This document shows, piece by piece, positions 1,158-20,206 of a stretch of DNA of 21,007 nucleotides. The stretch spans positions 1 through 21,007 of the IMG/VR virus record IMGVR_UViG_3300032093_006343. One strand, written 5' to 3'. Position numbers and translations under genes: made by a program. Numbering within the stretch: position 1 is the first letter of the stretch; every line of letters starts with the position of its first letter. Under the pieces are notes generated by a model. It had not been told where the DNA came from, did no database searches, and saw only the letters and a list, made by a program, of their open reading frames with translations. The DNA comes from a virus.

Positions 1158-1451
1158 TTATTTGATATTTAGTTTTTTTCGTGCTTCAAGGCATAAGTCG
1201 CCATTCGGCTTAAATTGCCTACAAGAATTAGGTCTGTCAAAGTAAATTGAGCATGATACACAATTTCCTACAACGCCTTGCAATGCCACACATCTATTAT
1301 TCTCAGTTTTCATCAAAGGATAGTCTCCTCGTTGCATTTCTTTCGGTATCTTTTCTGCATCCGATCTGTCACGCTTAAGAAGCGGCCAAGACCATTTGTA
1401 AGAACAGCAAGCACCGCAAGAAATACAGTCTTCACTTGTTACTTCTTCCAT
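1158..1451 (-). CDS. YkgJ-type cysteine-cluster protein (97 aa)
   Basis: The protein has CISCGACC at residues 9-16, then Cys54, Cys64, Cys67 and the signature C-IYFDRPNSCRQF (67-79), with a further Cys87. The CxxCxxCC plus C-x-Y-x-RP-xx-CR-F arrangement is that of the YkgJ/UPF0153 family, small proteins thought to bind zinc or an Fe-S centre; their biochemical role is poorly defined. The start codon lies 13 bases inside the end of the PAPS-reductase-like gene, so the two are probably translationally coupled and may work together, for example with one protein supporting a metal centre of the other (inference). Length is normal for a minimal family member. Confidence 0.8.
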   Translation of the reverse strand: MEEVTSEDCISCGACCSYKWSWPLLKRDRSDAEKIPKEMQRGDYPLMKTENNRCVALQGVVGNCVSCSIYFDRPNSCRQFKPNGDLCLEARKKLNIK

Positions 1452-2275
1452 TCCACAGGGCGGAATCCAAGGTCATCAATAACGATGTCCTCGTATGGAG
1501 CCATTTCGCTTATATTCGTGATAGTGGCGTTTAGTTTAGGGCAATGCACATGACGACCTAAATGTCGATTCACGCAATTAAAACAAGTCGGATAAAAGTC
1601 GGCATTGAGAGATTTATCTGGATTGTTATACCACTTATCATCTTTTTTAATATACCGAGTTGGATCAGGTTCAACTCCACTTTCCTCTAAATACTCAAAA
1701 ATATCATCATCAGTCCAGTCGCGCATTGGATATAGCGATACTGGCGAACCATCAACAATGCGGATGTCTTGAGCGAGCGGAACATGACCTTTGATTAGGT
1801 CAGTATCCTCGTATTTAGTTCCGATAAATACTGCACCCCACGGCCAGTTAAATGTTCCAGTAGGGCGTTGCAGGAAGTCATCAACGCCACACAAGAACCT
1901 TTCATCTGACTTTGGAGTCTCTGTTCCCAAAGATAAGACTACGCAATTTTTACCCCATTGGAAGTAATGAAGCATATCGAAGCGAACCTCGCCAGTATTG
2001 ACATCTGGGCCATCTGCGAGTGAAACCTTCATCGGCGGATACTCATATACCTCCAAGTCCCATTCCTTGATTAAACGATCAGAATAGGCATATCGCTCAC
2101 GGAATTTTGGCTGACGATACTGAACAACAGGAATATCAATCTCTGCTCCATATCGGATCAAATGAAGCAATGCAGTAGAGTCTTTACCTCCACTCCATAA
2201 TACTACTGATCTAGGCCATCTTTTGTTCCACTCTTTTATTCTATTTATTGTTTTATTTATTAGGTGATGTCTCAT
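1439..2275 (-). CDS. PAPS reductase-like adenine-nucleotide alpha-hydrolase family enzyme (278 aa)
   Basis: The PP-loop SGGKDS is at residues 28-33 after a hydrophobic strand (VVLW), the hallmark of ATP-pyrophosphatase/PAPS reductase-like enzymes that activate a substrate by adenylation or use PAPS. A later LYPMRDWTDDDIFEYL (181-196) matches the family's P-x(4)-W-x(3)-D[IV]-x(2)-Y region. The C-terminal YPTCFNCVNRHLGRHVHC (229-246) has Cys231, Cys234 and Cys245, a possible zinc or Fe-S site as seen in DndC-like and thiolation relatives. Phages commonly carry such genes, usually annotated phosphoadenosine phosphosulfate reductase; true substrates are generally unproven and may involve nucleic-acid or sulfur modification. 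The start is TAATG-coupled to the 270-residue gene and the end overlaps the YkgJ-type gene. Assimilatory sulfate reduction is not implied here. Confidence 0.85.
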   Translation of the reverse strand: MRHHLINKTINRIKEWNKRWPRSVVLWSGGKDSTALLHLIRYGAEIDIPVVQYRQPKFRERYAYSDRLIKEWDLEVYEYPPMKVSLADGPDVNTGEVRFDMLHYFQWGKNCVVLSLGTETPKSDERFLCGVDDFLQRPTGTFNWPWGAVFIGTKYEDTDLIKGHVPLAQDIRIVDGSPVSLYPMRDWTDDDIFEYLEESGVEPDPTRYIKKDDKWYNNPDKSLNADFYPTCFNCVNRHLGRHVHCPKLNATITNISEMAPYEDIVIDDLGFRPVEWKK

Positions 2276-3087
2276 TAAATAATAATTGCCGCTCCTATAG
2301 CCGCCCCAGCTACTGCGCCTCCCGCGCCAATCATCTGTCCAGTCATTGCGTTTTGAGAAGCTGCATTCTGAACAGCATTGTTATACATTGCTTGTTCGTA
2401 GTTCTGCTTGTTCTGTTGAGATACTTGATTGGCTTGTGCAAGTTCACCAAGATTTTGATTGATAAAATCAGAGGTAGATTGTTGCAATCTTTGTCCGCTC
2501 GCAAGAACATTTTGCTGGTATTGTTGCATTGCCTGAAGATTTGCTGACTTAGCCGCCATCTCAGCTTGAATAGCAGTAGCTGGATCAAGCCCTCCGATAG
2601 GTGCTGGAGTTTGCGCCAAATATCCCTGTTGAAGTGCCAGATTTCGCAGTCGAGCTTGTCGTCCAGCTTCAGTTCCAGCATCATAGATCGCAGCGCGACC
2701 AATCGTCCCGCCAAGCCCCGTTGTATATCCAGAGGTCAATCCTTGCTTTTTAGCAAACTCATCCATGCTTCGCTGAGTAGCTGTAATATCAGATAGCTCC
2801 GCAACCCTTCCACCCATCTGGCTCCGCATTCTTGCAGCCTCTGGATCAGTTAAAGCCTCAAGTTCACGAGAACGAGTGATGTTTTCAAGTCCAAATTCAG
2901 CAGCTTCTTTAGATGTCCTGCCAGCATCAAAGGTTTGAGTTTTTGGAGGGAGTGCAGCATATGCTTTTACAAGTTCACCTTGCGACTGCAAATACTGACC
3001 CCCGATGCCTTGCTTTGCAGCAAGCAAAGCATACATAGATGTGTCATCAGGTTTTGGTATTTTAGGACTAGAAGTTGATCCACCCAT
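2275..3087 (-). CDS. Gln/Ala-rich MGG protein, putative internal virion protein (270 aa)
   Basis: It begins MGGSTSSPKIPKPDD, continues with a long Ala/Gln-rich helical region, and ends in a Gly/Ala-rich hydrophobic tail (NAMTGQMIGAGG... to AAIII, residues 246-270) that could insert into or contact a membrane. It is clearly paralogous to the upstream 308-residue protein: RELE (73-76), TTGLGGTIGRAAIYD (122-136), QAPIGG/APIGG followed by P-T-I, and NAMTG are shared in order. An internal or ejection protein is the best guess from composition and position; the family is not recognised with certainty. An AGGAG SD lies ten bases before the ATG. The stop overlaps the ATG of the PAPS-reductase-like gene. 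Confidence 0.78.
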   Translation of the reverse strand: MGGSTSSPKIPKPDDTSMYALLAAKQGIGGQYLQSQGELVKAYAALPPKTQTFDAGRTSKEAAEFGLENITRSRELEALTDPEAARMRSQMGGRVAELSDITATQRSMDEFAKKQGLTSGYTTGLGGTIGRAAIYDAGTEAGRQARLRNLALQQGYLAQTPAPIGGLDPATAIQAEMAAKSANLQAMQQYQQNVLASGQRLQQSTSDFINQNLGELAQANQVSQQNKQNYEQAMYNNAVQNAASQNAMTGQMIGAGGAVAGAAIGAAIII

Positions 3088-3092
3088 AAATT

Positions 3093-4019
3093 TTATGCTC
3101 CTGCTAGAGTATAATATTGACCGCCAGTTGCAGATGTTCTTGGGACATATTGCTGTCCTCCGTATCCAGTAATGGATGATCCGCCAGCACCGCCACCCAT
3201 TTGACCATACGCTCCAATAGCAGAGGATGCAATATTCCCTCCAGCTTGGATATAAGCTCCGGTCATTGCATTTTTAGATGCTTGATTTTGAGCTTGGTTT
3301 TGAAGCATGGCTTGCTGGTATGCTTGTTGAGATTGTTGTTGAGCTTGTTGCGCTCTAGCAAGGTTGCCAAATTGATTCATCGCAGACTCATACCCAGTTT
3401 GACCAAATCCAGCAACCGATCCAAACATTCCTTGCTTATATGCCTCTTGCGCGGCGATATTTTGAGCTTCAGCAGCTTGCTTTGCGGCAATAGATGTCTC
3501 TGGTGAAATGCCGCCAGTTGGAGCTTGCGTTGAGGCAAGATATGCTTGGCGTTGCGCGGATAGATTTTGTTCGTATGCCTGTTTAGCGGCAAGCGCACGA
3601 TCATACATTGCGGCACGACCAATAGTAGAATCTCCAAGTCCAGTCTCGTATTGCGTTGGAAGACCTTGTGTCCGCATATACTCTCGCATATACTGATCAG
3701 CATTTTGTTGTGCTGTAAGGTCTTCAATCTGCTGAGATTGAGCAAGTCGCATTGCCGCTTCTTGAGGATTGGTAATGCGTTCCAATTCTCGTTGCCTATA
3801 AATGTTTTGCAATCCAAGTTCAGCGGCACGACGAGATTGCTGAGAAGCATCATACATCTGTTGCTCTGGAGCCATGCCAGCATATTGCTGAAGCATTTGT
3901 GCTTGGTTAGCCATTTGACGTTGTTGAGCTTGCTGCATCATCATGGCAAGAGCAATATCACGCGATGGATCGCGTTTAGAGATATACTTGTTTGCGTCTA
4001 CTGTTTTTGCTCCACCCAT
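3093..4019 (-). CDS. Gln/Ala-rich MGG protein, putative internal virion protein (308 aa)
   Basis: It begins MGGAKTVDANKYISKRDPS. An Ala/Gln/Met-rich helical stretch (about 25-65) leads to the block shared with the 270-residue paralogue: RELERITNP (77-85), YETGLGDSTIGRAAMYD (124-140), STQAPTGGISPETS (163-176). A further Gln-rich region (about 217-248), NAMTG (250-254) and a Gly/Ser/Tyr-rich tail follow. The predicted structure is mostly helix with a small-residue-rich end, as in ejected inner-core proteins of short-tailed phages (inference). The gene starts two bases after the stop of the 129-residue gene with no SD. No lytic transglycosylase or other enzymatic motif is seen. Confidence 0.78.
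   Translation of the reverse strand: MGGAKTVDANKYISKRDPSRDIALAMMMQQAQQRQMANQAQMLQQYAGMAPEQQMYDASQQSRRAAELGLQNIYRQRELERITNPQEAAMRLAQSQQIEDLTAQQNADQYMREYMRTQGLPTQYETGLGDSTIGRAAMYDRALAAKQAYEQNLSAQRQAYLASTQAPTGGISPETSIAAKQAAEAQNIAAQEAYKQGMFGSVAGFGQTGYESAMNQFGNLARAQQAQQQSQQAYQQAMLQNQAQNQASKNAMTGAYIQAGGNIASSAIGAYGQMGGGAGGSSITGYGGQQYVPRTSATGGQYYTLAGA
3098..3102 (-). promoter_or_regulatory. SD (AGGAG) for the 270-aa gene
   Basis: The minus strand reads AGGAG ten bases before the ATG at 3087. It falls in the final codons (Leu-Ala-Gly-Ala-stop) of the upstream 308-residue gene, the same arrangement as at 58-62 and 562-568. Confidence 0.45.
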
Positions 4020-4674: not shown

Positions 4675-6807
4675 TCAGCAGGGATTCTGTGCGAGGTATT
4701 GTTGCGCGGCTTGGTTGGCGGCATTTTGAGCTAATTCACCAGCTTGATTCTTTGCGTCAATCTGTGAAATGCCAGACAAGTAGCTTGCCGATGCGGTAGC
4801 AGAAATAGACTTTGTGGGATCAATCGTGCATGAAAGAGTCGCAGTCCTAAATTCTTTGGCCCACCAAGACCTTTGCGTAGTGTCTGCTTGCTCATACGGG
4901 CTAGGAAGCAAGTCAATTTCAATGCTAGTTCCATCTTGTGCTGTAACACATGATTTAGTCTCTGGAGCTTGAGGAACGCCAGTGCTGCGCTCGCTCCAAG
5001 GATCAAGGAATACACGCAATGATTCAATGCCCATTTCGCCACACCACTCGATTAGCACAGAGAATGCTTTGTCAATGTCGTTTGTAAGGCTGGACTCGCA
5101 AGTAATGGCCGATTGTCTGCGCTGACTATTTTCAGTAATCAACCTACGATATTGCGTGTTTAAGAATCCAAGTTCGGCAATCTCTTTAGCGTAGTCGCTA
5201 TTCACCCACTGGTAATCTGAAGTTACCGCCAGCAATCGAGTATCAAGAATGTTTTGGTAGAAGCCTTTTGAACCGCGATACGAAACTCGCGCATCCACAG
5301 TTCCGCCAATTTCGCAAGCCTCAATTTCACCATACTGGAATTGCTTGAAATCAAGACCATCACCAAGAAGTCCAGTCTCCATCTGTGCGTAGATGCGATT
5401 TACTTTTTCTGTGATTCCACCATCGACATCAATATCGAAATATGTATCTGCGCGATTAGACATGAATGCTTCCCAAAGATGATTGTAAGAACCATCATTT
5501 GTTGCAGCGTAATCAACAGAGAAATGGAAACAACGAGGTGCGCCATTTACAACGCCAGAAATCCACTCTACGGGCCTTGTTCCAGTCCATACGCCACACC
5601 ATGCTGGGATGCGTTGCGATGACCACTCAGCGGCGGCAGCGTAATCAAGAACCATCGTTGCTGAATTACATGGCTCCAAGTAAGGGACGGAATATAGCAA
5701 GTAGTTCTCAAACGACATCGCGCAAATCTTTGATGTATCTCCAGCCATGTATGCTTTGATGCGAGCCATCTCAACATCTCGATAAAGCGACTCCGATGTA
5801 ACATAGACTGACGCCGCAATGTCAGCAGATATTAGTCCGCCTTGGGAATACCACCACATTTGTCCAGCTTGAAACGAAATAGATTTGCCAGCAACGCAGC
5901 CAATCGTCGGATACAATGTCGTTTGGAAATTTGCAGTAGTTACCCATTGAGTTCTATCGTAGATTCCACTTGCCAGTGAGTATGTCGCACGATCAGTGAA
6001 TACAATCAGTTTTGTGTCGTTATCCTGACCAATGTAATTCGTCATTCCAGTAACAACGCGAGCAAATGCAAAGTCACCACGGCCAGTTCCAGTCAGTCTT
6101 TCCGTGAATGAAGTTGGATCGCCTAAATCAGATGCTAGAACGATGTTCTTTGATGCAACCCAAAGTCGATTTCCACTAAATGACATCCAATATCCAACAG
6201 GAATTGAAGTTGTCTGGATGCCAGTCTGATTTGACCCATCCCAGTATGCAGGAGTAGAAATGCCATCTTGGATTACAACGATACGATGAGATGGAGTTAC
6301 TGTTACATCACCACCAGTTGATACCTTTGCGGTTTGCGTTGCTAGAGTGAAAACAAACTGGTCAACACTTGGGTCTAGCTTGATATTTTTGAGTCGATAA
6401 TCTTCCCAGTTTTTCGGTTGAGTCAATGGGAATGGCGAGTAGTAAACATTTCCATTAACTGCGAACACTACAAACGGCAATTCATCAGCAACAGATGTTG
6501 TTCCATCTGGATTGTAGATTTGCGCTGGAATAGTTTTCGTGACTCCATTTTGGATCACAGTATCTGATGCACTTGCTTGCTTGTTTGATGAGAAAAAGAT
6601 TCCTCCTTGGAAATTTCCCGGAGGAAGCGAGAGACGCATTGAGTATCCCGGCCTAGTTTGAACAACTCCACCACGAACAGAACAATTTACTGCCCACTTA
6701 ATCTGGTTGTCTGGCAATGCCCACGGATTTCTTATTGAGTTGACACCAAGAATCCACCCAGAAGAAACTTTTACTTCTCTTCCTGAAGTTATCTGTGCGC
6801 TTTTCAT
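4675..6807 (-). CDS. Nozzle-like tail protein (710 aa)
   Basis: The N-terminus has GWILGVNSIRNPWALPDNQIKWAVN (17-41) followed by RGGVVQTRPGYS (45-56). This pattern of a short glycine motif, LPDNQ-x-NC and a basic/RPG turn is typical of podoviral nozzle (tail tubular B-like) proteins. The body is beta-rich, with segments such as RIVVIQDGISTPAYWDG (175-191) and SGNRLWVASKNIVLASDLGDP (211-231) that look like beta-propeller blades. The C-terminus is Ala/Gln-rich (about 685-710). Its length fits nozzle proteins (about 600-900 residues). The start overlaps the stop of the adaptor-like gene (TAATG), the adaptor-then-nozzle order seen in many short-tailed phages. Assignment is by pattern, not by a search. 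Confidence 0.65.
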   Translation of the reverse strand: MKSAQITSGREVKVSSGWILGVNSIRNPWALPDNQIKWAVNCSVRGGVVQTRPGYSMRLSLPPGNFQGGIFFSSNKQASASDTVIQNGVTKTIPAQIYNPDGTTSVADELPFVVFAVNGNVYYSPFPLTQPKNWEDYRLKNIKLDPSVDQFVFTLATQTAKVSTGGDVTVTPSHRIVVIQDGISTPAYWDGSNQTGIQTTSIPVGYWMSFSGNRLWVASKNIVLASDLGDPTSFTERLTGTGRGDFAFARVVTGMTNYIGQDNDTKLIVFTDRATYSLASGIYDRTQWVTTANFQTTLYPTIGCVAGKSISFQAGQMWWYSQGGLISADIAASVYVTSESLYRDVEMARIKAYMAGDTSKICAMSFENYLLYSVPYLEPCNSATMVLDYAAAAEWSSQRIPAWCGVWTGTRPVEWISGVVNGAPRCFHFSVDYAATNDGSYNHLWEAFMSNRADTYFDIDVDGGITEKVNRIYAQMETGLLGDGLDFKQFQYGEIEACEIGGTVDARVSYRGSKGFYQNILDTRLLAVTSDYQWVNSDYAKEIAELGFLNTQYRRLITENSQRRQSAITCESSLTNDIDKAFSVLIEWCGEMGIESLRVFLDPWSERSTGVPQAPETKSCVTAQDGTSIEIDLLPSPYEQADTTQRSWWAKEFRTATLSCTIDPTKSISATASASYLSGISQIDAKNQAGELAQNAANQAAQQYLAQNPC

Positions 6808-9800
6808 TAGAACATTACTGGATCAGTCGTATCTCCGTATGTGATCGCATTGATCTGCGGGACTGACATTGCATGACCATCAATACTCTCTTGCTGATTC
6901 TTTAGATAAGCAAAAGCAATCTGCCAGTAGCGAGCCGATTGATCAGCGAAATCTTTATCTTCCAAATCGCAAGCGTGAACAGCAGTGATAATTGCTCGCT
7001 CTTGCTCTAGCGGAATAAAGTCATAGATGCTGGTGATACTTGGAGTCTGGATGCGATAAGAAATCCTAGCCCACGCACAAGGCTTACCAATGCGAATCCT
7101 GCGGTATTGAGGATTAACTTCAGATGGATGATATTGACCAATTAGAGTCATGTCATTGCTACGGCCATAATCGTAAGCATAAAGCGACACATAGCCTTCA
7201 GTAATTGGCTTGTCGATTTGAGAAACTGACTTCACGAATGTTGGCAATGTTACAGAGTCAACAAAGAATGTTGATTCTACAGTCTCGCCAGTTGTCGTGT
7301 ATGTCTTGCGACCAGTAGTAGACGATGTATTTCTTGCTTGAGCAAGTGTATCGTAAAGCTCAAACGAATTATTATCTAGCCTGCGAGCGTAGTATGTCGT
7401 TCCAGCAGTCAATCCAGTTGGCAATACATCGCCTTCTTTAGCGCGAGGAACAACGGCATCACCAGTATTGAAATGAGCTTGGTCAGCGTCAATGCTCGTA
7501 GATGAAGGGACATTGAATGTGCGAAGAATGTCTAGGCTTAACTGACCAGTCCCCGGAGTTGTCAATACCTGCAAGATTCCACCCAAGTAAACCTTGATTG
7601 AATTACCAAATAGTTTGATGGTATAGTCGGTTCCAGAAACAAGAGGAGCAGGAAGCGTGTTCGTCGTGGAGAATCGAACAATTTGATCTTCGCTCAAGAA
7701 TACAATTTCAGATGGAGTAATTAGATTTCCAAATGGCAAGGAACGGAATGATTTCCTAAGAGCATAGTAAGACTGACCAGAACCGAATGAGGTAATCGTG
7801 ATAAGACCAGTTACTCCTCCAGCATTGGCGTTGACTAAACTATTGTAAATCTTACCAGTCGTGTTGTTGATCTTATTTAGATAAAATGGAGTTACTCCAT
7901 TATCAATAGATGGAGATGTATTTGGAAGCAGATAATCAGTTCCAAAATACAATTCTTGTCCAGTAACGAGATTAGTAAAATCACTCTCCCAATTGTTGTT
8001 GAATGTCACGCTAAATGAACGGGACAATGATACATACAATGTCCCAGTGCCAGATGAAGTAATATTTACATCATTGAAGTCTGCGCCTTTTACTGTAAAG
8101 TTACCAGTAGAAGTGTTAAGTGGGGCTTCTGCGCGATATGCTACTCCAGAAACCAATGGTGATGGCAATGATCCAGTAGAAGTAAAGCTAATAAATACAC
8201 CAGTCGATGGCGAGATGGCGACTGTTGGAACAGATGTATATCCAGTTCCAGATGTTATTAGATTAAGACCAGTAACAACTCCTGCACTTACTGTTGCAGT
8301 TGCAGTTGCGCCACTTCCGTTTCCTCCAGTAATTTTAACTTGAGGTGCTTCGGTATATCCAGAACCTCCAGAAATAAGAGTGAAATGTGATAGAAATGAT
8401 GTTGTTATATTTGCGGTTGCTACGGCTTGACTTCCAGCCTTCAACGCACAAGTCATTGTTCCAGTTGCGGGAGTAGAAAAAACATTAATTGTTCCAGTTG
8501 CTGGACTCAGAAGACCTCCATCAACAGAATAATCAAATGTGCTTGCCGTGACATTAGAAATAATAGCTTGTTTATTGTATGCTGGTGGGGTTGCCCCGCT
8601 AATAAGAACACTCTGACCATTAGAAAAGCCATGCGGAGTTGATGTTGTTGCAGTAGCAGTTGTTCCAGAGCTTGCAGATGCTGTTATTGATCCAGTTGCA
8701 TCAACACCGGGATCGCTTGCCATTGTGTATGTAAATTGATTTGGATTTACATAAACAATTGTAAATGTTCCGTTATATTGGGATTGGTTTGCTCCAACAA
8801 TTATAACGCTTTGCCCATTAGTAAATCCATGACTTGTACAATTTACTGTAGCAGTAGTTGTTACATGGGTTATTGAGGTAACTGCCTTCCCGCTTACGAG
8901 AGATGATATTGATTTATCATATCCAACTGAAGCATTTAAGGTATATGTAAATGTATTGGAGCCAGTGACATTTACAATATATGTTCCATTGTATCCAGTT
9001 GGTGTAGCTCCAGAAATAGTAACTTCATTTCCACTTGTAAAGCCATGTGGATTAAAAGTTGTGCAAGTAGCTGTAGTTGCAGATGATGTTAGACTTGTTA
9101 TTGAAATTGATGGATTTATAGGGGGCGGATCAATTGTAATCAAGGGCGAAGTTGAATATCCAAGGCCCGGATTCGTGATTACAATTCCAGAAATAGTATT
9201 ATTTACAGTATTGCGAACGGCATATCCAGTTGCAGTCAGTGGAGTAATAGGGCTTCCAACTGGTGGCGTCGGGGGAGCAGAAAATGCTATATTAGGAGTC
9301 GCGGTATATCCACCTCCAGAGGCAGTAATGTTTATTTCAGTTACAGAGCCAACGACAACAGCTTGAAAATTAGCTCCAGAACCAGAGGGGGTTGGGATGT
9401 TAAGTCCCGGTGCGGTGATTTGAGACGATGTTCCAGTCGTAGCAGTAGCTGCAATCAGCTTAACAATAGAGTTCGTTCCACTACCAGAGTCTTTAATAAC
9501 AATTGGATTTACAAGGCTTGTTGGTGTCGAAGCAATCGCATCAGCTTGATTTTCGTGAAGCGAAATACTAAATGGATCAATGACATTAACGAAATAGTTT
9601 TGATTCGCAATAAGAGGCTTTGGAAGATTTCCAGATGCAGTAAATGCTTGGACTTGATCTCCGTCATTGTAGTAGTGACGAACAGAGAAAGTCAGAGTAG
9701 TTTGCGGATCAATCTTTTTGCGAATATCTACTTCTAGCGTTCCGGGTGCTGGAGGAACAGGCCCAGTCGTTCCAGTCGTGTAAACTGGATTGATATTCTT

Positions 9801-10790
9801 TTTGGCATCATCTGAGGTTTCAAATACAGTCAAATGCGTCGAGTCTTCGGCATTTGCGTAGTATGTAGTTTCAGGATTAAGCGGAGCAGGAAGTGATTGA
9901 CCAGCGGGGAATGTGATTTGATTAGCAGTATCAAGCGTGAATGCTGGAGCAGAAGAAAGCTCAAGTGCAGTTATAACCTGTGATTCACGGCTATCTTTAA
10001 AATCAAGGCTATTTGGAATAACGATGCTCTGCAAGTTGATTGGATATTGCAACGCTTGAGCATTCAGAGGATCATTGAAAAGCTGGATTGTGAAAGCATC
10101 AATAACTCCAATGTAATATGTCTGACCATTCTCCAATGCTACAGGAATCGTTCCAGATGTCGCAGTAACGCTCATTCCTTGACCAGATGATAGTCCGTGC
10201 GCCGCTGTGCTAGTAAACAGATTGATTGGCGTAATAGCAACGCTACGGGTCTTTACAGTAGCATCATCTGGAGCAATCGTTCCATAAGCAAAATCACTTT
10301 GCGAGTGAATTGGAACAAGCAAGCCATCAACACCAGTTCCATTCGCAAGTTGCGAGCGAAGTGTGCGATTGTTCTGATCGTTTCCAAGAACGCGAATCGT
10401 CTTGCCAACATCATTCTCCAACTCTGCGACAGCGACAAGCTGTGAAGGCTGGATGATGTCCATGAGTGTCGCGACATATCCGCGATCATCCCATGCCCAT
10501 TCAACGGAATTAAACATTCCGCCTTTGTTTACATGGTATTGAAATAAACGATTGCGGAAGTATGTCGGAGAGCCATCAATGTTGACTGCAAGAGGAACAT
10601 CAATGTTTCGAGGAAGCGTGATAGAACAACGATCCCAGCCTGTGCATACATCAACATCAGCGACAGAGTGAGTCCAGTGACCAGACTCCATCAAGGTCGC
10701 TACCGCCTGCTGAATTTTACGAAAGATTTTACTTTCGTCAGTCGTTCCTAGAATTTCAGCACATTCCTCAAAGATTTGCGAGACAAACAT
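6807..10790 (-). CDS. Giant adaptor-like tail protein with about 1000-residue repeat insertion (1327 aa)
   Basis: Residues 1-160 ([26 protein letters not shown]39, [17 protein letters not shown]) look like the N-terminal half of a tail adaptor/gatekeeper (T7 gp11-like), usually about 200 residues. Residues about 1185-1327 ([63 protein letters not shown]) look like its C-terminal half. Between them are beta-rich repeats: six degenerate LP-PL-G-YY-type units (about 213-246, 298-331, 387-420, 873-907, 1044-1074, 1121-1154), three HGF-x-x-G-x-x-V units (582-756) and two GSGY units (487-556, 802-862). The inserted domains probably project from the tail as a collar or appendage (inference). The next gene is nozzle-like, matching the adaptor role. 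No frameshift is seen across the frame. Confidence 0.72.
8205..8387 (-). repeat. GSGY-type beta repeat, adaptor-like gene, copy 2
   Basis: The encoded residues about 802-862 contain [37 protein letters not shown] and [14 protein letters not shown], a complete two-arm unit. It is closest in pattern to the copy in the 793-residue tailspike (16595-16819). Confidence 0.65.
8483..9113 (-). repeat. Three tandem E1_FCCH-like repeats within the adaptor-like gene
   Basis: Encoded units start with [14 protein letters not shown] (residue 582), [14 protein letters not shown] (654) and [14 protein letters not shown] (720). Each is followed by a YNG/YNK turn and a TFTY/QFTY/TFDY strand. Spacings are 72 and 66 residues (216 and 198 bases). 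The pattern matches small beta-barrel repeats (ubiquitin-activating-enzyme FCCH-like) often found in phage and bacterial surface proteins. The repeats have diverged, so the duplication is not recent. Confidence 0.7.
9123..9332 (-). repeat. GSGY-type beta repeat, adaptor-like gene, copy 1
   Basis: The encoded residues about 487-556 contain [16 protein letters not shown] and [18 protein letters not shown]: two half-units of the form [IV]-T-x-x-G-x-GY-x-x-x-P-x-[IV]-x-[IF]. The same pattern recurs at residues 802-862 of this protein and in the 793-residue tailspike. Confidence 0.6.
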
Positions 10791-11818: not shown

Positions 11819-11943
11819 TAATATTGTGTAATCCGACCTTCTTTTTGGGCTTGTTCGTATTCTTCCTTGGTCACTTTATTTTTAGCAAGGATTTCTTTAG
11901 CTTGTTCGGTTGTCATGTAATGGATGTTAATGTAGTTTTTCAT
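11818..11943 (-). CDS. Small 41-aa protein, unknown
   Basis: The frame reads MKNYINIHYMTTEQAKEILA and ends KEGRITQY. It is bounded by an ATGA overlap with the 588-residue tailspike stop and a TAATG overlap with the next gene, which strongly suggests real translation. The body is one charged helix-turn-helix-sized segment (TTEQAKEILAKNKVTKEEYEQAQKE region), like small phage peptides annotated as hypothetical. An internal Met at residue 10 could be an alternative start. Function unknown. Confidence 0.6.
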   Translation of the reverse strand: MKNYINIHYMTTEQAKEILAKNKVTKEEYEQAQKEGRITQY

Positions 11944-13706
11944 GCAATGACATACTGACCAGTAAATATAATTGATGTTGTTGCGGAAAGATCACCTAAA
12001 GAAACTGTGCTTGGACTTGCTGAAGCTACTGTTCTTTTATTAAGCCTGATTCTATTTGTATTTAAATCAAGCGAACCTTCCATTGAAACAATGGATGTTG
12101 TCATATTGGATGTAAGACATTGAACAACGCCTTGGAATTCATTCCCATTTTTAATTGTAAATGGCAATCCAGAAATTGCTATCTGCCCAGTAGCATCAAG
12201 AGAAACAGCACTTAAATTTATTCTTCCAGTAAAAAAACAACGATTCCCTATTCTTGTGTAAGACCCAGTTTGAAGTCCGTATGCCCAACCTGTTCCGCTT
12301 ATAGTTACACCTTCAAGTGATGGGGTAAATGTATTTTCATTATAAAATGAAAGTGCAGAATCACTTGCATTAAACTTTATTCCTCCATTTGCAACAATAG
12401 CTCCAACTGGATAATTTGCTGAAATGCTATTGTATATTTCTACGGCACAATTAATAAGTCGATAGTTTCCCCAATCTGAAAGTAAATAATTTGCCCCAGT
12501 AATACTTTCCAATGAAAATCCACCTTCAGTTCTTCCAACTGATGGTTGTGTTCCTGTAATTCTAATTCCCTCTGCTGCCATATAGGTATTACAGAGTCTC
12601 ATGTTTAAAGAATCAACAGAATCCCCATTAAACCAACATCCCCATTTTCTGGTAGCCCTTCCATCCGTTATTGCATTTGTTCCAGAAATAATTAAAGAAT
12701 TACTTAATTCTGAATATCCAGATGCAATATAATTTGTAGATGATGTTGGACTCAATACAACTCCTACACCATCATTATTTTCAGATGTATAAGAAAGTAA
12801 TGTATTTCCTCTATGAAACCATAGTCCAATTCCATATCCCCATAATGGATTTGTTGTTTCATTAAATGCTTTATCTGATCCATTTGCGTTTGCATATAGA
12901 TCAGAAATTGTTAATGCGTTAACTTTATTTCCACCAGTCCATGAATAATCTAATGTTCCCCTTCCTATAGAAATTCCGCAACCTTGATTTTTAAATGCAC
13001 TTATTTTTTCATAAACACCGCTATAAGTTCCATCTAAATAAAATGCGTGTTTTGTAGTATTTGTAATTACTATATTTTTGATTACAGGTTCAGACAATCT
13101 TATTGCATAAACTCCAAATCCAGCTTTATTATTTCCATCAATTACGATGTTTTCTAATTTTAATCCAAAAACTACAGAGTCAAAAGTTTGTGGATTTTGA
13201 ACTCCAATAGATGTAAGAGATACAAGCAATACTGCTGTTGTGGTGGACATTGGCCCATCATAAAACAAAATACATTCTTTTTTCCCATCCCATGTTGGCC
13301 CACCAGATTGCGATGTATATGGATAATTTGTTGGAAATTCACAACCTATAATACCTGCATTTCTATTTCTGTTTGGTGAAATAATAAGTGACGATGTAAC
13401 TCGATATTTACCTGCTGGGAACAATACTGTTTTATTAGAATCCAAAGCCGCTTGAATCGCAGCAGTATCATCCGCTACCCCATCACCCACCGCACCGAAG
13501 TCCTTCACATTGACCACATCAGCAAACCTGTTTGCCAATGTCCTTGCCGTAGTCGATCCAGTTGCCGTGACATTGGTATTGCTGATTGCCCCTACAAAGC
13601 TATTTGCTGTGACTACGCCAGCGTTGCTCACAGTCATCTGGTCTACTCCACCTACCCCGATTATTGCCTGTGTTCCGTCTACTGATGCTTTAATGTTTGC
13701 GCTCAT
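11940..13706 (-). CDS. Tailspike with pectate-lyase-type beta-helix (588 aa)
   Basis: A virion-anchor-like N-terminus (1-50) is followed by STTARTLANRFADVVNV (51-67) and FGAVGDGVADDTAAIQAAL (70-88), the start of the pectate-lyase-3 beta-helix fold used by phage depolymerase tailspikes. The middle (about 90-450) is repetitive, Asn/Gly/Ser-rich and helix-like. The C-terminus (about 459-588: FTPSLEGVTISGTGWAYG, GSYTRIGNRCFFTGRINLS, ISGLPFTIKNG) matches a common tailspike trimerisation/tip module. It likely binds and perhaps cleaves surface polysaccharide; catalytic residues cannot be fixed by eye. It is the last of three tailspike genes and its stop overlaps the 41-residue gene. Confidence 0.82.
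   Translation of the reverse strand: MSANIKASVDGTQAIIGVGGVDQMTVSNAGVVTANSFVGAISNTNVTATGSTTARTLANRFADVVNVKDFGAVGDGVADDTAAIQAALDSNKTVLFPAGKYRVTSSLIISPNRNRNAGIIGCEFPTNYPYTSQSGGPTWDGKKECILFYDGPMSTTTAVLLVSLTSIGVQNPQTFDSVVFGLKLENIVIDGNNKAGFGVYAIRLSEPVIKNIVITNTTKHAFYLDGTYSGVYEKISAFKNQGCGISIGRGTLDYSWTGGNKVNALTISDLYANANGSDKAFNETTNPLWGYGIGLWFHRGNTLLSYTSENNDGVGVVLSPTSSTNYIASGYSELSNSLIISGTNAITDGRATRKWGCWFNGDSVDSLNMRLCNTYMAAEGIRITGTQPSVGRTEGGFSLESITGANYLLSDWGNYRLINCAVEIYNSISANYPVGAIVANGGIKFNASDSALSFYNENTFTPSLEGVTISGTGWAYGLQTGSYTRIGNRCFFTGRINLSAVSLDATGQIAISGLPFTIKNGNEFQGVVQCLTSNMTTSIVSMEGSLDLNTNRIRLNKRTVASASPSTVSLGDLSATTSIIFTGQYVIA
13451..13557 (-). repeat. Tailspike linker cassette, copy in the 588-aa gene
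   Basis: This segment encodes the STTAR-LANRFADVVNV-FGAVGDGV-DDTAAIQAA region. It aligns at DNA level, at a constant offset of 2070 bases, with 15521-15627, including a perfect 24-base identity at 13451-13474 versus 15521-15544. A shorter, more diverged copy is at about 18040-18107. Confidence 0.75.
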
Positions 13707-13709
13707 AAA

Positions 13710-15854
13710 TTAAATTGCTGAAATGATAAATGCTAAAAGTTGATCGTATCTAATCCCGTATCTGTTGCCAGCTGGTCGATATTGTTGAATTACATTTCCA
13801 TCAGAATCTTTTTCTTCTGGCTGTTCGTCCCACTCATCATAGCATAGCAATCCATATTTAGTAGCGTCAAGTTCTTCTGATTCAAATGCCGATACAACTT
13901 CTTGTGCAATAACGCCAATATGGATTCGGGCATCCTCCCCTTTTGCAGAAACTGCATCTTTGAAACGGAACTTTTTAACAATTGATTTTAATGAAATAGC
14001 AACTCTTTTTTCAGCCTCATTTAGATTTTCAATATCTTGTTTTTCTCGCTCGTCCGAAGTGTTAATTACATTAGTCCCTGCAAAAAGTTGTGACCAACGA
14101 AATGATCCACTTCCAAGTGATACAAGATTGTCTGAACCGGGAGTAAATGATCCCTCGCCAACACCTGTAGGAACAGAGAAAATATCAACATACCCAAGAG
14201 AGTTGCTATATCTCGTTCCAAGACCACCTGTAGATGTTGTTCTATTTAATGTAAATGGTAGTGAAGATGAGTATGCACCTTGATTTCCAAGAACAAATGA
14301 GCCGCTTGTATTTATTCCATAACCACCCATCTTGTGATCTATTTCAAATGGAGTAGTAAAAGAGGTTAGCGTGAATAGAGGAATGGTTTGATCCCAAATA
14401 TTATTTTTAACAATGACATTTGTAAATGTATTAGAAGACGACCTAATTACAGAAACAACTGTAGCACCAAGATTTGAAACTGTATTATTAGTAAAAATAA
14501 ATCCACTTATATCATATACTGAAATAAATGCCCACCTATTAGCTGTTCCATCCAATCCCACCGAATCAATTAAATTATTTGTTATAACAAAATTTATAGG
14601 ATTAACAACTGGACTTGATGAATCATTTAATACAGCAATAGCCCCAGCAGATGTTCCGCAAATTGTATTTCCAGAAATCAATGTATTTTCCAATTTGGAA
14701 AGACCATCAAATCTAATTGATGTAAATGGACGCATATTACTTCCATCTACTATTCCGGCAATTGCTCCACCGAGTTTATTGTTTGATATTACAAGATTTT
14801 CAGAAGTCGAAAGAGGGCGAAATGAAATTGGAACTGAACTGCACAAGTCGGCAACATTCCCGTCAATAATTGCACCGCTCATTCCTGCTGTTCCTTCTAC
14901 CTCAATAAATCCTTGTCCAATATCAATGCAGTTATTTGAATAAATTGGCGATCTTTGAATATAGTTTTTAACAGTAACAGCATAGTTGCCCCCATGAAAT
15001 CTGTTATTTGTTATCCTTTGCGCCCTTCCCTTATATTCATTACCTTGCTGCAAATCTCCTCCTGATGTTCCGCTCGCAGGCCAATCAAGAGTAATCGAAT
15101 CGCCACCATTCAAAGATGAAAAAACATTTTTATCTGCATGGAGAGCGCGGCCATAAAAATAAATTGGGCTAAATAATTCATAAAATTCACAATCATAGAC
15201 ATATCCATCCATGTCATCTGTATTTGTGATTTTTTGAAACAACAATCCAATGTCATTTGTATTTCCTGAATCACCTCGAAACTTTAAACAATTAAATGTT
15301 ACTTGGCTTTCGGTAATAAGAAAAATTGCAGTTGCTGGATCGGTATTAAGAATATCAAGTTGGATTATTGATCCATAGTTATTTGTAGTAATATCACCTT
15401 TCCCACCAATACTTCCACCATCACCAAAGAATCCTTGACCTCTCGTTGATATTGTAATTGTAGATGTGGTGCGATACTTGCAAGATGGAAAGTAAACATT
15501 TTTACCCGTGTTGACAGCAGCTTGAATCGCAGCAGTATCATCCGAAACCCCATCACCAACCGCACCAAAGTCCAGCACATTCACCACATCAGCAAAGCGA
15601 TTAGCCAGCGAACGAGCAGTTGTGCTGCCAGTAGCAATCGCAGTCGAGTTACTGATATTGCCAGATGGGATTGTTCCAGCAAACGACACATTCCCGCTTG
15701 CATCTACACTAATCACATCCTGCGTAGTTGCTCCAGCATTGCCCCGTGCCAGCTTAATCGTGCCGTCTGGTGACGATGGCACTGCCAGCGTGAAGTTCTG
15801 CGTTGCTGTAGGTGATTGTCCGATCTGGACTGCGTTTGCTTTGATGAGACTCAT
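13710..15854 (-). CDS. Tailspike with beta-helix and C-terminal S74 chaperone/protease (714 aa)
   Basis: The N-terminal 75 residues form an anchor-like region (MSLIKANAVQIG, then a VISVDASGNVSFAG strand-turn). STTARSLANRFADVVNV follows at about 77-93 and FGAVGDGVSDDTAAIQAAV at 96-114 opens the beta-helix, which runs to about 560. The C-terminal 115 residues are a peptidase S74 intramolecular chaperone: SDEREKQDI with Ser600 and Lys605 spaced as in the known Ser-Lys dyad of endosialidase, followed by HIGVIAQEV, LLCYDEW and YGIRYDQLLAF. By family knowledge the domain trimerises, guides folding and cuts itself off before Ser600, leaving about 599 residues. Its ATG overlaps a nine-codon remnant frame. 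Substrate specificity is not readable. Confidence 0.87.
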   Translation of the reverse strand: MSLIKANAVQIGQSPTATQNFTLAVPSSPDGTIKLARGNAGATTQDVISVDASGNVSFAGTIPSGNISNSTAIATGSTTARSLANRFADVVNVLDFGAVGDGVSDDTAAIQAAVNTGKNVYFPSCKYRTTSTITISTRGQGFFGDGGSIGGKGDITTNNYGSIIQLDILNTDPATAIFLITESQVTFNCLKFRGDSGNTNDIGLLFQKITNTDDMDGYVYDCEFYELFSPIYFYGRALHADKNVFSSLNGGDSITLDWPASGTSGGDLQQGNEYKGRAQRITNNRFHGGNYAVTVKNYIQRSPIYSNNCIDIGQGFIEVEGTAGMSGAIIDGNVADLCSSVPISFRPLSTSENLVISNNKLGGAIAGIVDGSNMRPFTSIRFDGLSKLENTLISGNTICGTSAGAIAVLNDSSSPVVNPINFVITNNLIDSVGLDGTANRWAFISVYDISGFIFTNNTVSNLGATVVSVIRSSSNTFTNVIVKNNIWDQTIPLFTLTSFTTPFEIDHKMGGYGINTSGSFVLGNQGAYSSSLPFTLNRTTSTGGLGTRYSNSLGYVDIFSVPTGVGEGSFTPGSDNLVSLGSGSFRWSQLFAGTNVINTSDEREKQDIENLNEAEKRVAISLKSIVKKFRFKDAVSAKGEDARIHIGVIAQEVVSAFESEELDATKYGLLCYDEWDEQPEEKDSDGNVIQQYRPAGNRYGIRYDQLLAFIISAI
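15521..15627 (-). repeat. Tailspike linker cassette, copy in the 714-aa gene
   Basis: This is the partner of 13451-13557 with the same 2070-base offset throughout. Most differences fall at third codon positions, so the protein motif is better conserved than the DNA. Confidence 0.75.
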
Positions 15855-15880
15855 AGTGATGCTTTAATGTTTGCGCTCAT
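15851..15880 (-). pseudogene. Nine-codon remnant of a tailspike start (MSANIKASL)
   Basis: Bases 15857-15880 are identical over 24 bases to 13683-13706, the first eight codons (MSANIKAS) of the 588-residue tailspike gene. Here the frame continues with Leu and stops at a TGA overlapping the ATG of the 714-residue gene. This is best read as the stump left when one tailspike start was replaced or duplicated by recombination. It might also serve as a leader frame for translational coupling. Confidence 0.65.
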
Positions 15881-15895
15881 GTTTATTTAGTTTTT

Positions 15896-18277
15896 TTAAC
15901 CAATTACTTGTATCCTGTAATCTTTTGGTGATCCAGTTCTATTTTCAATCCATAAATCACCATTTAATAGTCCAAATGTAACATTTCCTAAAATTCCAGT
16001 TGTTCCATTTAATGATGCTCCATTTGCGTTTACAGCAATCCCAGTAGATGATCCAGCCAATATTGTGAATGATGTGGATGATGGAACTATTTGGATGATC
16101 GTTGCTGCATTATTTCTAACATTAATACTTGCAAGAAGCCTATCACCAGATCGAATTATTTTGGGTATTTTTGCAACTTGGTTATCTTCTATCGCTAAAA
16201 AATAAGCATTATCAATAAATACATTTACATCAGGATAGGTTGTTTTTCTAACGCCTAGATTAAGACTTGGATCATATTCTATAACATTTCCAGTAATTAA
16301 TTTGACATTGTTATTTACAATTTGAGCAGTATTTAAATCCACAGTTCCAGCAGTATCAAATACAATACAAGTTCCGCCATTTCTTGCAATAGTTTCAATT
16401 CTGTTGTCTTTTATAATAATATTTTCAGCGAAAGTGTTTGATGTCTCTGGGAATATGTAAACAAATCTATTAATAACTCCTTTAACTATATTATTTTGGA
16501 TTACAATAGGAATGTCATAGTTTACGAATCCATCTAAACTATTTATTCCAAATGCAACAAATGTATCGCATCCAGAAGCTGGAGTTACAAAATCCATTAC
16601 AGGTATTGCTACTGCTCCAGAACCACCTCCTCCTGTGAATGAAATTGATGGAGGTTCCGTGTATCCACTACCATTAAGATTTACTGTTATTGCAGTTACT
16701 GCACCTGCTGCAATCGTTGCAGTAGCTGTTGCAGTAACTCCAGATGCTGGAGGTGAAATAACTACATTTGGAGCAGTTGCATATCCACTTCCTCCGTTGG
16801 TTACTGTAATGCTATAAACATCTAGATTATTTTTATTTGGATATGCCAATGAATCGTATGTGCAGTTTTGAACTGTCAATCCAGCAGCATCCTCGTAGAT
16901 ATTTATTACTGTTGTAAATGGCCCACTAAATACAACATTATCAATAGTTGTGTTCCTTCCACGGCAATTGATTCCCGTAGTGCAATCGGTGATATATCCG
17001 TTACTGATAATTCCATTTTCAGAACCTCCATGCATTCCAATTCCGAAACTAAATGCAGATGGATTTAAATCGCTTGGAAGCCAAGCTCCACCACCATTTA
17101 CAACAAAGTTTGTTACTTGCCAATCACGAGCAGGGCCATTGATTCCCGGATATACCCAAGGCGCACTTCCATTTGATGGAACCCCATCAATGCAATCTGC
17201 ATCAAAAGACCTGCGTTGACCATTTGATTTTAGCCCATCCAAAAGCAAGCCAAGAGACCCATCTGTTGCTAGTCCATATCCATTGACTCCGCTATTTGGC
17301 ATAGATGCCGTCTGCTCAAATATGATATTCGTATATTTTGAATTAATGGTTAATTTGTCGCTGATGCAACGCTGCGTAAATCCTTTAAGTTTTACATTCT
17401 CTACAATAGAATTAACAGATTGTTGAATCTGAATTCCAACAGATGTTGTTCCTGCTGGGGGATATGGACTTTCGAGATTGATATTTTTAATAGTAACCTT
17501 GCATGGGTTCCATGCTCTTATTACTATATCATAAGATGTATCTGCTGGTGAATATACATCTCTTGTATAATCTTCAATATACACTTTATTTCCTACAATC
17601 CCCACAATTTTATGGATTTCTCCACAGAATTTTCCAATTCCCGTTAGGGCATCATACCTAGAACCATTATACCATTCTCTGCTAGTTGAAATCTGTATAA
17701 CCATTCCAACAGAAAGCCCTGCGACACTAGTTAATGTAAAAACAGATTGACCAACATTTACATCTCCAGACAATGTTAATCCTGTTACATTTGAATACCT
17801 TATATCAGGAAAACTAAACATTGTTAGGCCAGCATTTGCTGCTGCTGAATTAGCAATCAATGTTGGCTCATTCCCGTCATCTCCAATTATGCTAACTTCA
17901 AATGCATTTGTTGATGTGTTTGTATATCCATCGAATTGATATGTTCCAGATGGAATATAAACTGTTTTATTGTTTTGAATTCCGTAATTGATTGCAGCAT
18001 TTATCTGTGAAGTGGTATTTATTGCTCCAGTAGGATCAGCACCAAAATCCAATACATTCACAACATCAGCAAACCTATTTGCCAATGAACGAGCAGTCGT
18101 GCTATCAGTAGCCGTAATAGGTGCAATTTTAGATTCAGTTACTGCGTTGCTTGCAATTTTAGACTCTGTTACTGATCCATCTTGGAGATTTGCAGCATTT
18201 ATAATAAAATTACCAGAAATGTCTCCTCCAGTTACATTGCCAAATAGTCCAGATGTTCCGTTGAGAATTAGTGACAT
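15896..18277 (-). CDS. Tailspike with beta-helix and inserted GSGY domain (793 aa)
   Basis: The N-terminus is fibre-like (MSLILNGTSGLFGNVTGGDI) with paired SVTESKIA/AVTESKIA repeats (35-52). The shared linker STTARSLANRFADVVNV (59-75) and FGADPTGAINTTSQINAAI (78-96) open a long beta-helix with typical segments such as NPCKVTIKNINLESPYPPAG and GIISNGYITDCTTGINCRG. A GSGY-type domain interrupts the helix at about 487-561. The C-terminus is beta-rich and ends in WIENRTGSPKDYRIQVIG. It has no S74 domain. The gene lies four bases after the 207-residue fibre-like gene. A receptor-binding and polysaccharide-processing role is inferred from the fold. Confidence 0.8.
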   Translation of the reverse strand: MSLILNGTSGLFGNVTGGDISGNFIINAANLQDGSVTESKIASNAVTESKIAPITATDSTTARSLANRFADVVNVLDFGADPTGAINTTSQINAAINYGIQNNKTVYIPSGTYQFDGYTNTSTNAFEVSIIGDDGNEPTLIANSAAANAGLTMFSFPDIRYSNVTGLTLSGDVNVGQSVFTLTSVAGLSVGMVIQISTSREWYNGSRYDALTGIGKFCGEIHKIVGIVGNKVYIEDYTRDVYSPADTSYDIVIRAWNPCKVTIKNINLESPYPPAGTTSVGIQIQQSVNSIVENVKLKGFTQRCISDKLTINSKYTNIIFEQTASMPNSGVNGYGLATDGSLGLLLDGLKSNGQRRSFDADCIDGVPSNGSAPWVYPGINGPARDWQVTNFVVNGGGAWLPSDLNPSAFSFGIGMHGGSENGIISNGYITDCTTGINCRGRNTTIDNVVFSGPFTTVINIYEDAAGLTVQNCTYDSLAYPNKNNLDVYSITVTNGGSGYATAPNVVISPPASGVTATATATIAAGAVTAITVNLNGSGYTEPPSISFTGGGGSGAVAIPVMDFVTPASGCDTFVAFGINSLDGFVNYDIPIVIQNNIVKGVINRFVYIFPETSNTFAENIIIKDNRIETIARNGGTCIVFDTAGTVDLNTAQIVNNNVKLITGNVIEYDPSLNLGVRKTTYPDVNVFIDNAYFLAIEDNQVAKIPKIIRSGDRLLASINVRNNAATIIQIVPSSTSFTILAGSSTGIAVNANGASLNGTTGILGNVTFGLLNGDLWIENRTGSPKDYRIQVIG
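16595..16819 (-). repeat. GSGY-type beta repeat inserted in the 793-aa tailspike
   Basis: The encoded residues about 487-561 (ITVTNGGSGYATAPNVVIS, ATATATIAAGAVTAITV, NGSGYTEPPSISFTGG) are the same two-arm unit as residues 802-862 of the adaptor-like protein. Confidence 0.65.
18040..18107 (-). repeat. Tailspike linker cassette, diverged copy in the 793-aa gene
   Basis: This encodes STTARSLANRFADVVNVLDFGA. The protein is nearly identical to the other two copies, while the DNA has drifted and the downstream GDG-DDTAAIQAA part is replaced by PTGAINTTSQINAA. Confidence 0.65.
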
Positions 18278-18949: not shown

Positions 18950-19222
18950 TCAAGAAATTTGTTCCATTTCTTCGTAACTCTCCGCCAGAAGCGTACCCAT
19001 GTCTTCGACTGCTTCTTCCTCAAGGTCGGGAAACCTCGCATGAAGCAATTCATGGCATAGAACATTTAACATTGACCTTTCGCATTTCGGATTGATGAAA
19101 ATAGTTCTACTTGAGTAGTCACAGATTCCGTCGTTATCGACTCCGTTTGTCTTTCCTGCGTGACCCAATCGTATCTTCCATGACTTTCCGTTGATTGTCT
19201 TTTTGATTATTTTCTTTTTCAT
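18950..19222 (-). CDS. Small HExxH metallopeptidase-like protein (90 aa)
   Basis: The core is VLCHELLHARFPDLEEEAVEDMG (54-76). His57-Glu58-x-x-His61 is the zinc-binding site, and one of Glu68, 69, 70 or 73 is the likely third ligand. Upstream, KSWKIRL and GICDYSSRTIFIN (32-44) match the strand and GxCDY-x-x-x-T-I-x-I pattern before the zinc helix in small phage SprT/ImmA-like families, supporting the ATG at 19222. The substrate is unknown. The first 89 bases overlap the preceding gene in another frame. There is no signal peptide, so it should act in the cytoplasm. Confidence 0.75.
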   Translation of the reverse strand: MKKKIIKKTINGKSWKIRLGHAGKTNGVDNDGICDYSSRTIFINPKCERSMLNVLCHELLHARFPDLEEEAVEDMGTLLAESYEEMEQIS

Positions 19223-19445
19223 GGAATTTGTAGTGAGGAATCCTCATTATGCGATCTCTTTTAATCAAGAACTTCTTCTCTGTAACATATCCAAGTTCTT
19301 TTCCAGTTTTAATTTTCTTCTGGACATTACTTATAGTCACTCCCCACATTTTTGTTAATTCAATAGCGGAATACCAGCCATCAGGAATCTTATCCAATGG
19401 CATAGATTCTTGCTGGATGATTTTTAGAAAATCATTTGGTGTCAT
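19134..19445 (-). CDS. Small helix-turn-helix-like protein (103 aa)
   Basis: I chose the ATG at 19445, which makes an ATGA overlap with the phosphoesterase stop; a longer frame to 19517 would use TTG. Residues about 26-60 (DGWYSAIELTKMWGVTISNVQKKIKT) look like a winged or MerR/AlpA-type helix-turn-helix, and LGYVTEKKFLIKRDRIMRIPHY would be the wing. The C-terminal 30 residues are highly charged (Lys/Arg/Asn/Gln) and lie over the start of the metallopeptidase gene. It could be a DNA-binding regulator of the late region, or a small structural-cluster protein; no target is visible. Confidence 0.6.
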   Translation of the reverse strand: MTPNDFLKIIQQESMPLDKIPDGWYSAIELTKMWGVTISNVQKKIKTGKELGYVTEKKFLIKRDRIMRIPHYKFHEKENNQKDNQRKVMEDTIGSRRKDKRSR

Positions 19446-20206
19446 ATTGGCAACCTCCACACATCTCCTTTTGCTCGTTGTGTAATTTGCAGGGATGACT
19501 GATGCAATGATTCGCAATACTCACCCCACAACCATCCTTGACACCAACTGAATGTGCTTCTGCGATTTTTTGCATATTCTAATGCACCGCGAGCAGTCAA
19601 TGTTCCGATATTATAGCAAGTTCCACCATGATATGTTCTGGCATTCTGAATGGCTACACGATGGGTATGTCCCATGATTATCTTTCGCCTATTCCTGTCG
19701 CAATACTGCTCTGCCATGTCTCTAGCGGCTGATTCTCCGAAGCAAGTTCCGTGAGTAAAACCCATATCGGAAATATCAACAATTTGTTCGATTCCAGAAT
19801 ATGGAATGAGGCGAGCTTTTAGTTTTTTTGATGTGTCTTCAATCGCACAAACAATCTTGTGAGCGCAATATTGTGTTACAGCATTCTTGCTATTTGTGAG
19901 CTTCCAAGCACGATCTTCATGGTTGCCACAAAGGATGTATGGGTCTTTGCATCCAGCCATCAGTTCTCGCAAGTGCATTAATCCAGTATCAATATCTGGA
20001 GTTATCTCATCTCCATCACTTCCAGAACCAGCACCATTCCCCATTAGCGCAGACATATCAATGAAGTCTCCTAGATGCAAAATTGTATCTGGCTTGTATT
20101 TTTCTCTGAAAGACATTACTGCCTTCCACGCTTCCTTATCACAGAATTTTGCATGGCTACAGGACACAGCTAGTATCCGTTTCCACTTATGATTTATATT
20201 TGCCAT
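19442..20206 (-). CDS. Calcineurin-like metallophosphoesterase (254 aa)
   Basis: Ordered motifs are SCSH (15-18), HLGDFID with GDxxD (46-50), CGNHED with GNHE (94-97), FTHG (150-153) and GHTH (179-182), the five blocks of calcineurin-like phosphoesterases that use two metal ions. In motif I the usual Asp-x-His reads Cys-x-His (Cys16, His18), so one metal ligand differs. Possible substrates are nucleic acids, nucleotides or protein phosphates. It starts one base after the endolysin gene stop and overlaps the helix-turn-helix gene (ATGA). Phages often carry such enzymes; the role here is unknown. Confidence 0.88.
   Translation of the reverse strand: MANINHKWKRILAVSCSHAKFCDKEAWKAVMSFREKYKPDTILHLGDFIDMSALMGNGAGSGSDGDEITPDIDTGLMHLRELMAGCKDPYILCGNHEDRAWKLTNSKNAVTQYCAHKIVCAIEDTSKKLKARLIPYSGIEQIVDISDMGFTHGTCFGESAARDMAEQYCDRNRRKIIMGHTHRVAIQNARTYHGGTCYNIGTLTARGALEYAKNRRSTFSWCQGWLWGEYCESLHQSSLQITQRAKGDVWRLPI

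Follow-up and report, generated by a model that had tools for sequence, protein, structure and literature searches.

The need to fit both the portal and the nozzle usually keeps phage connector proteins small and conserved. Among described adaptors, those of T7, KP32 and SU10 are built in the order helix bundle, fibre dock and C-terminal embracing loop (PMC9509320), a layout also found in the adaptor of P-SCSP1u (PMC10575957), and the adaptor gene of T7 and that of P22 stand directly before the nozzle or closure gene. T7-type adaptors are proteins of ~200 aa with a small fibre-dock domain and no module chain.

Strings of small beta domains have been described in other virion proteins, and the nearest precedents for the protein analysed here are the domain strings of T4 Hoc and the Ig-like insertions in phi29-like knobs. 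In phi29-like phages of Gram-negative hosts, Ig-like domains are inserted in the tail knob (up to six in gp11 of Acinetobacter phage Phanie) and are predicted to project sideways like fibres (PMC11476376). Here too a beta-domain chain is carried by a short-tail tube protein, but the knob is not an adaptor, belongs to another fold lineage and has no reported variation of module number between near-identical phages. T4 Hoc (PMC10385173) combines a conserved virion anchor with a string of variable Ig-like domains; in this it resembles the present protein, from which it differs in that the string is terminal and on the capsid rather than inserted in a connector. A brief search of open-licence papers found no description of a connector of this type with a comparable insertion, nor of module-number variation between near-identical phages.

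The window analysed here is the whole stretch of 21,007 nucleotides of IMG/VR record IMGVR_UViG_3300032093_006343. It encodes a candidate connector that accommodates an insertion three times as long as the connector itself, and phages that are almost identical differ in this insertion by whole domains. This suggests that, in environmental phages, modular evolution is rapid at the portal-tail junction as well as in the fibres.

Architecture of the split gene

The gene at 6807-10790 is a single open frame whose stop overlaps the start of the downstream gene at position 6807 (Table 1). No DNA tandem repeats were found in it, so that its repeats are seen at the protein level only. When residues 186-1175 were aligned with themselves, local scores reached 153 against a shuffled maximum of 66 (420 trials), and an HMM search with profiles built from the repeats detected six A modules, three C modules and two pairs of B repeats (GSGYT), arranged as A A A B C C C B A A A. 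All three kinds score far above shuffled controls, which bears out the first-pass annotation, where the middle of the protein had been described as a mosaic of at least three kinds of repeats; the limits then proposed for it, residues 186-1180, are close to those given by the profile of insertion-less homologues (~168-1174). The HMMs of the A and C modules cross-match, and A and C therefore probably form one superfamily of beta modules of 65-85 residues, with B separate.

Structure was predicted with AF2 for L174 (1084 aa), the shortest of the close relatives, using an alignment of 44 sequences. Its middle is predicted to be all-beta, with pLDDT mostly 75-93, and helices are predicted at residues 4-14 and 19-35 in the N-terminal end and at residues 1019-1033 and 1037-1058 in the C-terminal end, confidence being low in residues 39-116 and in the C-terminal strands. 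In the window protein, the N-terminal half of the unsplit protein (residues 1-167) has two predicted helices followed by the motifs LPRxxxxPLAVNxDGxP..RLFQYHxNxxG, and the C-terminal half (residues 1175-1327) consists of strands, two predicted helices and a conserved C-terminal tail, which has an identity of 0.77 among relatives and is predicted in the L174 model to be without structure on its own. Over 91 relatives, the mean identity of the two ends is 0.82 and 0.80; the A and B modules are less conserved than the ends (mean identity 0.55-0.63), and the C modules are hardly conserved (identity 0.03-0.22, occupancy 0.03-0.48).

Two database matches within the insertion were set aside. The match of the C modules to Pfam E1_FCCH, considered as a functional hint, is weak and below the cut-off, and the match to PHROG phrog_460 (head closure Hc2) covers only B repeats (775-863) and is therefore no evidence of a head-closure function.

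Table 1. Positions of the candidate connector gene, its modules and related genes in the window.
Feature	Residues	Positions	Strand	Basis
Split connector (adaptor-type) protein, whole gene, 1327 aa		6807..10790	(-)	single open frame
N-terminal half of unsplit protein	1-167	10290..10790	(-)	insertion-less profile (A10) 3-166, 137 bits
Insertion, ~1007 aa, predicted all-beta modules	~168-1174	7269..10289	(-)	absent from insertion-less homologues; AF2 of L174
A module 1	186-258	10017..10235	(-)	HMM iE 1e-28
A module 2	~272-340	9771..9977	(-)	HMM iE 1e-18
A module 3	360-432	9495..9713	(-)	HMM iE 3e-30
B repeat pair 1, GSGYT type	479-553	9132..9356	(-)	HMM iE 4e-11 and 2e-7
C module 1, number variable	563-632	8895..9104	(-)	HMM
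C module 2, number variable	633-699	8694..8894	(-)	HMM
C module 3, number variable	700-772	8475..8693	(-)	HMM
B repeat pair 2	801-860	8211..8390	(-)	HMM
A module 4, divergent	~935-995	7806..7988	(-)	HMM
A module 5	~1019-1068	7587..7736	(-)	HMM
A module 6	1095-1160	7311..7508	(-)	HMM
C-terminal half of unsplit protein	1175-1327	6810..7268	(-)	insertion-less profile (A10) 164-302, 74 bits
Candidate nozzle / head-closure Hc3-type tail protein, 710 aa		4675..6807	(-)	next gene downstream
Tail-spike gene of same phage, with B-type repeats	487-562 (repeats)	15896..18277	(-)	sequence search

Homologues without the insertion

Scans for distant relatives returned only insertion-bearing relatives, and the insertion-less ones came only via a degenerate motif. 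Shorter phage proteins have a motif resembling the RLFQYHxN region, and a DNA search with a degenerate pattern encoding L[FY][QE][FY]HxNGPG gave 50 contigs (L383-L432), among which 38 complete insertion-less ORFs of 302-355 aa, mostly 314-335 aa, were found; an HMM of the joined ends detects them with E-values down to 7e-57. A profile built from 15 of these homologues (A10) aligns to two separate parts of the window protein, residues 2-167 and 1175-1315, that are adjacent in the profile and 1007 residues apart in the window protein (Table 1). HMM searches found no A, B or C modules in the insertion-less homologues, which resemble the window protein in both halves and differ from it in this respect. 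They also stand before the same nozzle family: the gene is followed by a nozzle homologue in 33 of the 35 cases with a downstream ORF (E 1e-41 to 1e-104).

Since the ends are contiguous in these homologues, the window protein is, on the evidence of this comparison, a ~320-residue protein split at one point by about 1007 residues. The first-pass annotation had proposed an ordinary protein interrupted by a mosaic of roughly 1000 residues, to be refuted if homologues without the insertion did not exist; they do exist, with contiguous ends and in the same gene position, and only the size then given for the unsplit protein, 200-300 residues, was slightly short.

Variation of module number among insertion-bearing relatives

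IMG/VR contains hundreds of relatives for each end of the window protein, and these come from a large assemblage of uncultured phages, most of them of lake type. All scans pooled, 104 distinct full-length relatives were obtained, every one with an insertion, which measures 740-1377 aa and of which ~740 aa form a constant core. Within the branch of the window (68 distinct proteins), insertion length changes in steps of ~75-80 aa, and proteins with 0, 1, 2, 3, 4 and 5 C modules have, with some exceptions, insertions of ~740, 828, 905, 985, 1083 and 1150 aa, respectively; the correlation between C-module count and length (r 0.92) falls to 0.63 once the second branch is added, because other modules vary there.

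Length also changes between very close relatives: 36 of the 89 pairs with ends at least 97% identical differ by at least 60 aa, these counts being of sequences and not of independent events. In L222, which is 97% identical to the window protein over residues 1-835 and 90-96% identical after the insert, a clean 156-aa insert of two C modules is placed at 835/836, within B repeat pair 2, and in L090 and L245 a clean C module of 79/80 aa is found at ~992, at the end of A module 4. As read from these alignments, type-C modules are gained and lost fast while the ends hardly change. The length of the downstream nozzle gene is nearly fixed (695-712 aa in 73 relatives).

Adaptor-type features and the downstream gene

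The downstream gene is identified as a nozzle gene with moderate confidence. Its AF2 model is weak (pLDDT 55), and the best PDB matches of this model are the podophage tail chains 9nwi_Y, 8jov_A and 9k09_U, the phages concerned being Pa223 (E 6e-4, probability 1.00), GP4 and cyanophage A4; a PDB profile search with the sequence gave no match. Of 35 members of its family, 3 give a match to a head closure Hc3 family of PHROG (phrog_8040) and 25 to phrog_511 (internal virion protein), P22 gp10 belonging to a different Hc3 family (phrog_578) and not to phrog_8040. The split gene precedes this nozzle candidate in 336 of 342 cases of the insertion-bearing group.

The ends of the window protein had been read, in the first-pass annotation, as those of a T7 gp11- or P22 gp4-type adaptor. 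Gene order fits this reading, the window gene lying directly upstream of the candidate nozzle gene as does the adaptor gene of T7, and so does the predicted topology. In the L174 model, the order is two helices, strands, the insertion, strands, two helices and the conserved tail, and this prediction follows the order of T7-type adaptors: T7 gp11, KP32, SU10 gp11 and P-SCSP1u gp22 likewise have helices at both ends, a beta part between them and a C-terminal tail. Profile similarity, in contrast, stays within shuffled or chance levels when the ends are compared, as had been suggested, with T7 gp11, P22 gp4 and similar proteins. Scores of hhalign against 13 T7-type adaptors were 13.3 to 17.5, versus ~14-15 +/- 3.5 for shuffled sequences, and comparison with LUZ24 gp60 and P22 gp4 remained at chance level, with which distant homology is compatible. 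Some alignments to T7-type adaptors have a sensible register (ESGHW with QSRGW, VNKGG with VNRGG, and the C-terminal helices); as their scores are at chance, they are not used as evidence.

No significant similarity was obtained by other routes, namely by tblastn against INPHARED with each end and the joined ends, by PHROG searches with the ends and the insertion-less homologues, or by PDB profile searches with the ends and the short family. Foldseek with the whole AF2 model found no PDB match at E<=1e-3 and, in BFVD, only beta-repeat matches (baseplate, fibre and Gp10-type), and is therefore uninformative on the ends. The window protein is adaptor-type by position and predicted topology, with no membership of an adaptor family by test, and the unsplit ~320-residue protein is likely, although not proven, to be the tail adaptor between portal and nozzle.

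A proposed arm at the head-tail junction

There is a good probability that this protein is a connector whose inserted chain of beta modules forms outward arms, for contact with the host or environment or for the docking of spikes. In the mechanism proposed, an adaptor-type connector of ~320 residues would have acquired a chain of small beta modules in a single loop at the surface of its fold, and since the chain enters and leaves the compact domain at the same point, it would form an out-and-back arm. Owing to the ring symmetry of connectors, six or twelve arms per virion would result; the first-pass annotation had likewise suggested that twelve copies of the insertion might build a large collar or set of whiskers. 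The constant core of A and B modules may be the base of the arm, to which each interchangeable C module would add about one domain, and the position of the arm would correspond to that of the fibre-dock domain in the T7 and SU10 adaptors. The likeliest use of such an arm would be contact with the outside, either through weak binding to host surface glycans or to the environment, or by docking the three tail spikes of the phage, which are of the pectate-lyase type.

At the junction of head and tail, each virion would probably carry variable arms arranged as a ring. It is put forward more tentatively, as a possibility that falls short of even, that these arms make up a new virion part, namely a ring of six or twelve beta arms at the portal vertex that gains, loses and swaps whole domains on a fixed connector and acts as a fast-evolving collar for adhesion or the presentation of spikes. 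If so, arm length and surface would change by gain, loss or swap of modules while the connector stays fixed.

An arm could also be structural, serving as a collar or docking frame either to hold the tail spikes or to brace the portal vertex, its reach tuned by module number and without host contact of its own. The constancy of the core in all the relatives, the dock domains that hold fibres in the T7 and SU10 adaptors (PMC9509320) and the presence of three spike genes in the same cluster are consistent with such a frame; however, the fast gain and loss of C modules and their low conservation resemble exposed, exchangeable surface domains and not a load-bearing frame, and this explanation appears rather unlikely. 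The unsplit protein could, moreover, be another component of the neck or tail, for instance a ring that anchors the spikes or a second subunit of the nozzle, given that adaptor similarity is absent in every profile test and that its length exceeds that of T7 gp11 (196 aa) and P22 gp4 (166 aa). This is held to be improbable in view of the gene position immediately upstream of the nozzle, as in T7 and P22, of the predicted helix-helix...helix-helix ends, and of the ten other small ORFs of the near-complete relative G002, none of which matches an adaptor family.

The insertion itself can be questioned in two ways. Because repeats are present in every relative of the close family, the ends might belong to the repeat architecture of a large fibre or adhesin with no insertion at all, a view refuted by the contiguous homologues of 302-355 aa that have no modules and occupy the same gene position, and thus given almost no weight. 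The gene might also be an artefact of assembly or a frameshift fusing unrelated genes in what is a single metagenomic record, but the frame is intact in the 104 distinct relatives, from many metagenomes, and the contigs L001, L002 and L081 have N- and C-terminal ends identical to those of the window, and this view is refuted as well. For the connector with outward module arms, proteins of 302-355, 1084, ~1175, ~1250, ~1330, ~1430 and ~1490 aa form a natural series with and without the insertion that lets the role of the arm in adsorption or assembly be tested.

Related modules in other virion proteins

Modules related to those of the insertion also serve in virion proteins that are exposed: B repeats occur in the phage's own third tail spike (Table 1), related modules occur in structural proteins of cyanophage and Rhizobium phage, and two type-C modules are inserted in gp29, the head-closure protein of EBPR podovirus 1 (L251:5984-7558). 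The latter, of the P22 gp10/Hc3 type, is like the window protein in having type-C modules inside a neck protein, but its modules are two single ones and lie in the closure/nozzle protein instead of the product of the preceding gene. The neighbouring gp30 ends, as judged by eye, in one type-C module.

Genome neighbourhood

In G002 (62,098 bases), the terminase is recognised by a PHROG match and is followed by genes that, judged from their size and order, would be those of the portal, scaffold and capsid in the usual arrangement, none of the three having a profile match. The order continues with the spikes, the split connector gene, the nozzle and a late protein of 2131 aa. No tape-measure protein was recognised in G002, and a short-tailed virion is therefore likely. 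The 807-aa portal-sized, 410-aa capsid-sized and 700-aa nozzle proteins of this genome (L189-L192) are nearly without matches in PHROGs and Pfam, and likewise in INPHARED where searched, and the genome represents an undersampled group of 60-65-kb phages. The split-connector family was not found in bacterial genomes, and no cultured relatives of these environmental phages were found in the collections searched.

In the window, three consecutive pectate-lyase-type tail-spike genes (11940-18277, minus strand) have in common the N-terminal anchor TxxTARSLANRFADVVNVLDFGA; a peptidase S74 chaperone forms the end of the second, and the third is the one with B repeats of the connector arm. Four Q/A-rich proteins that start with MGG (51-1156 and 2275-4019, minus strand), variable in length among relatives, are probably internal virion or ejection proteins. 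Between them (1158-2275, minus strand) lie a PP-loop ATP-pyrophosphatase/PAPS-reductase-like gene, recognised by eye from VVLWSGGKDSTALLHL, and after it a gene for a small cysteine-cluster protein; relatives conserve these genes midway through the cluster of virion genes, G002 having both of them and G006 the PP-loop gene. Beside the spikes (18950-20731, minus strand) are genes for a small HExxH-type protein, a metallophosphoesterase-like protein and an endolysin-like protein, a relative's copy of the last matching PHROG endolysins.
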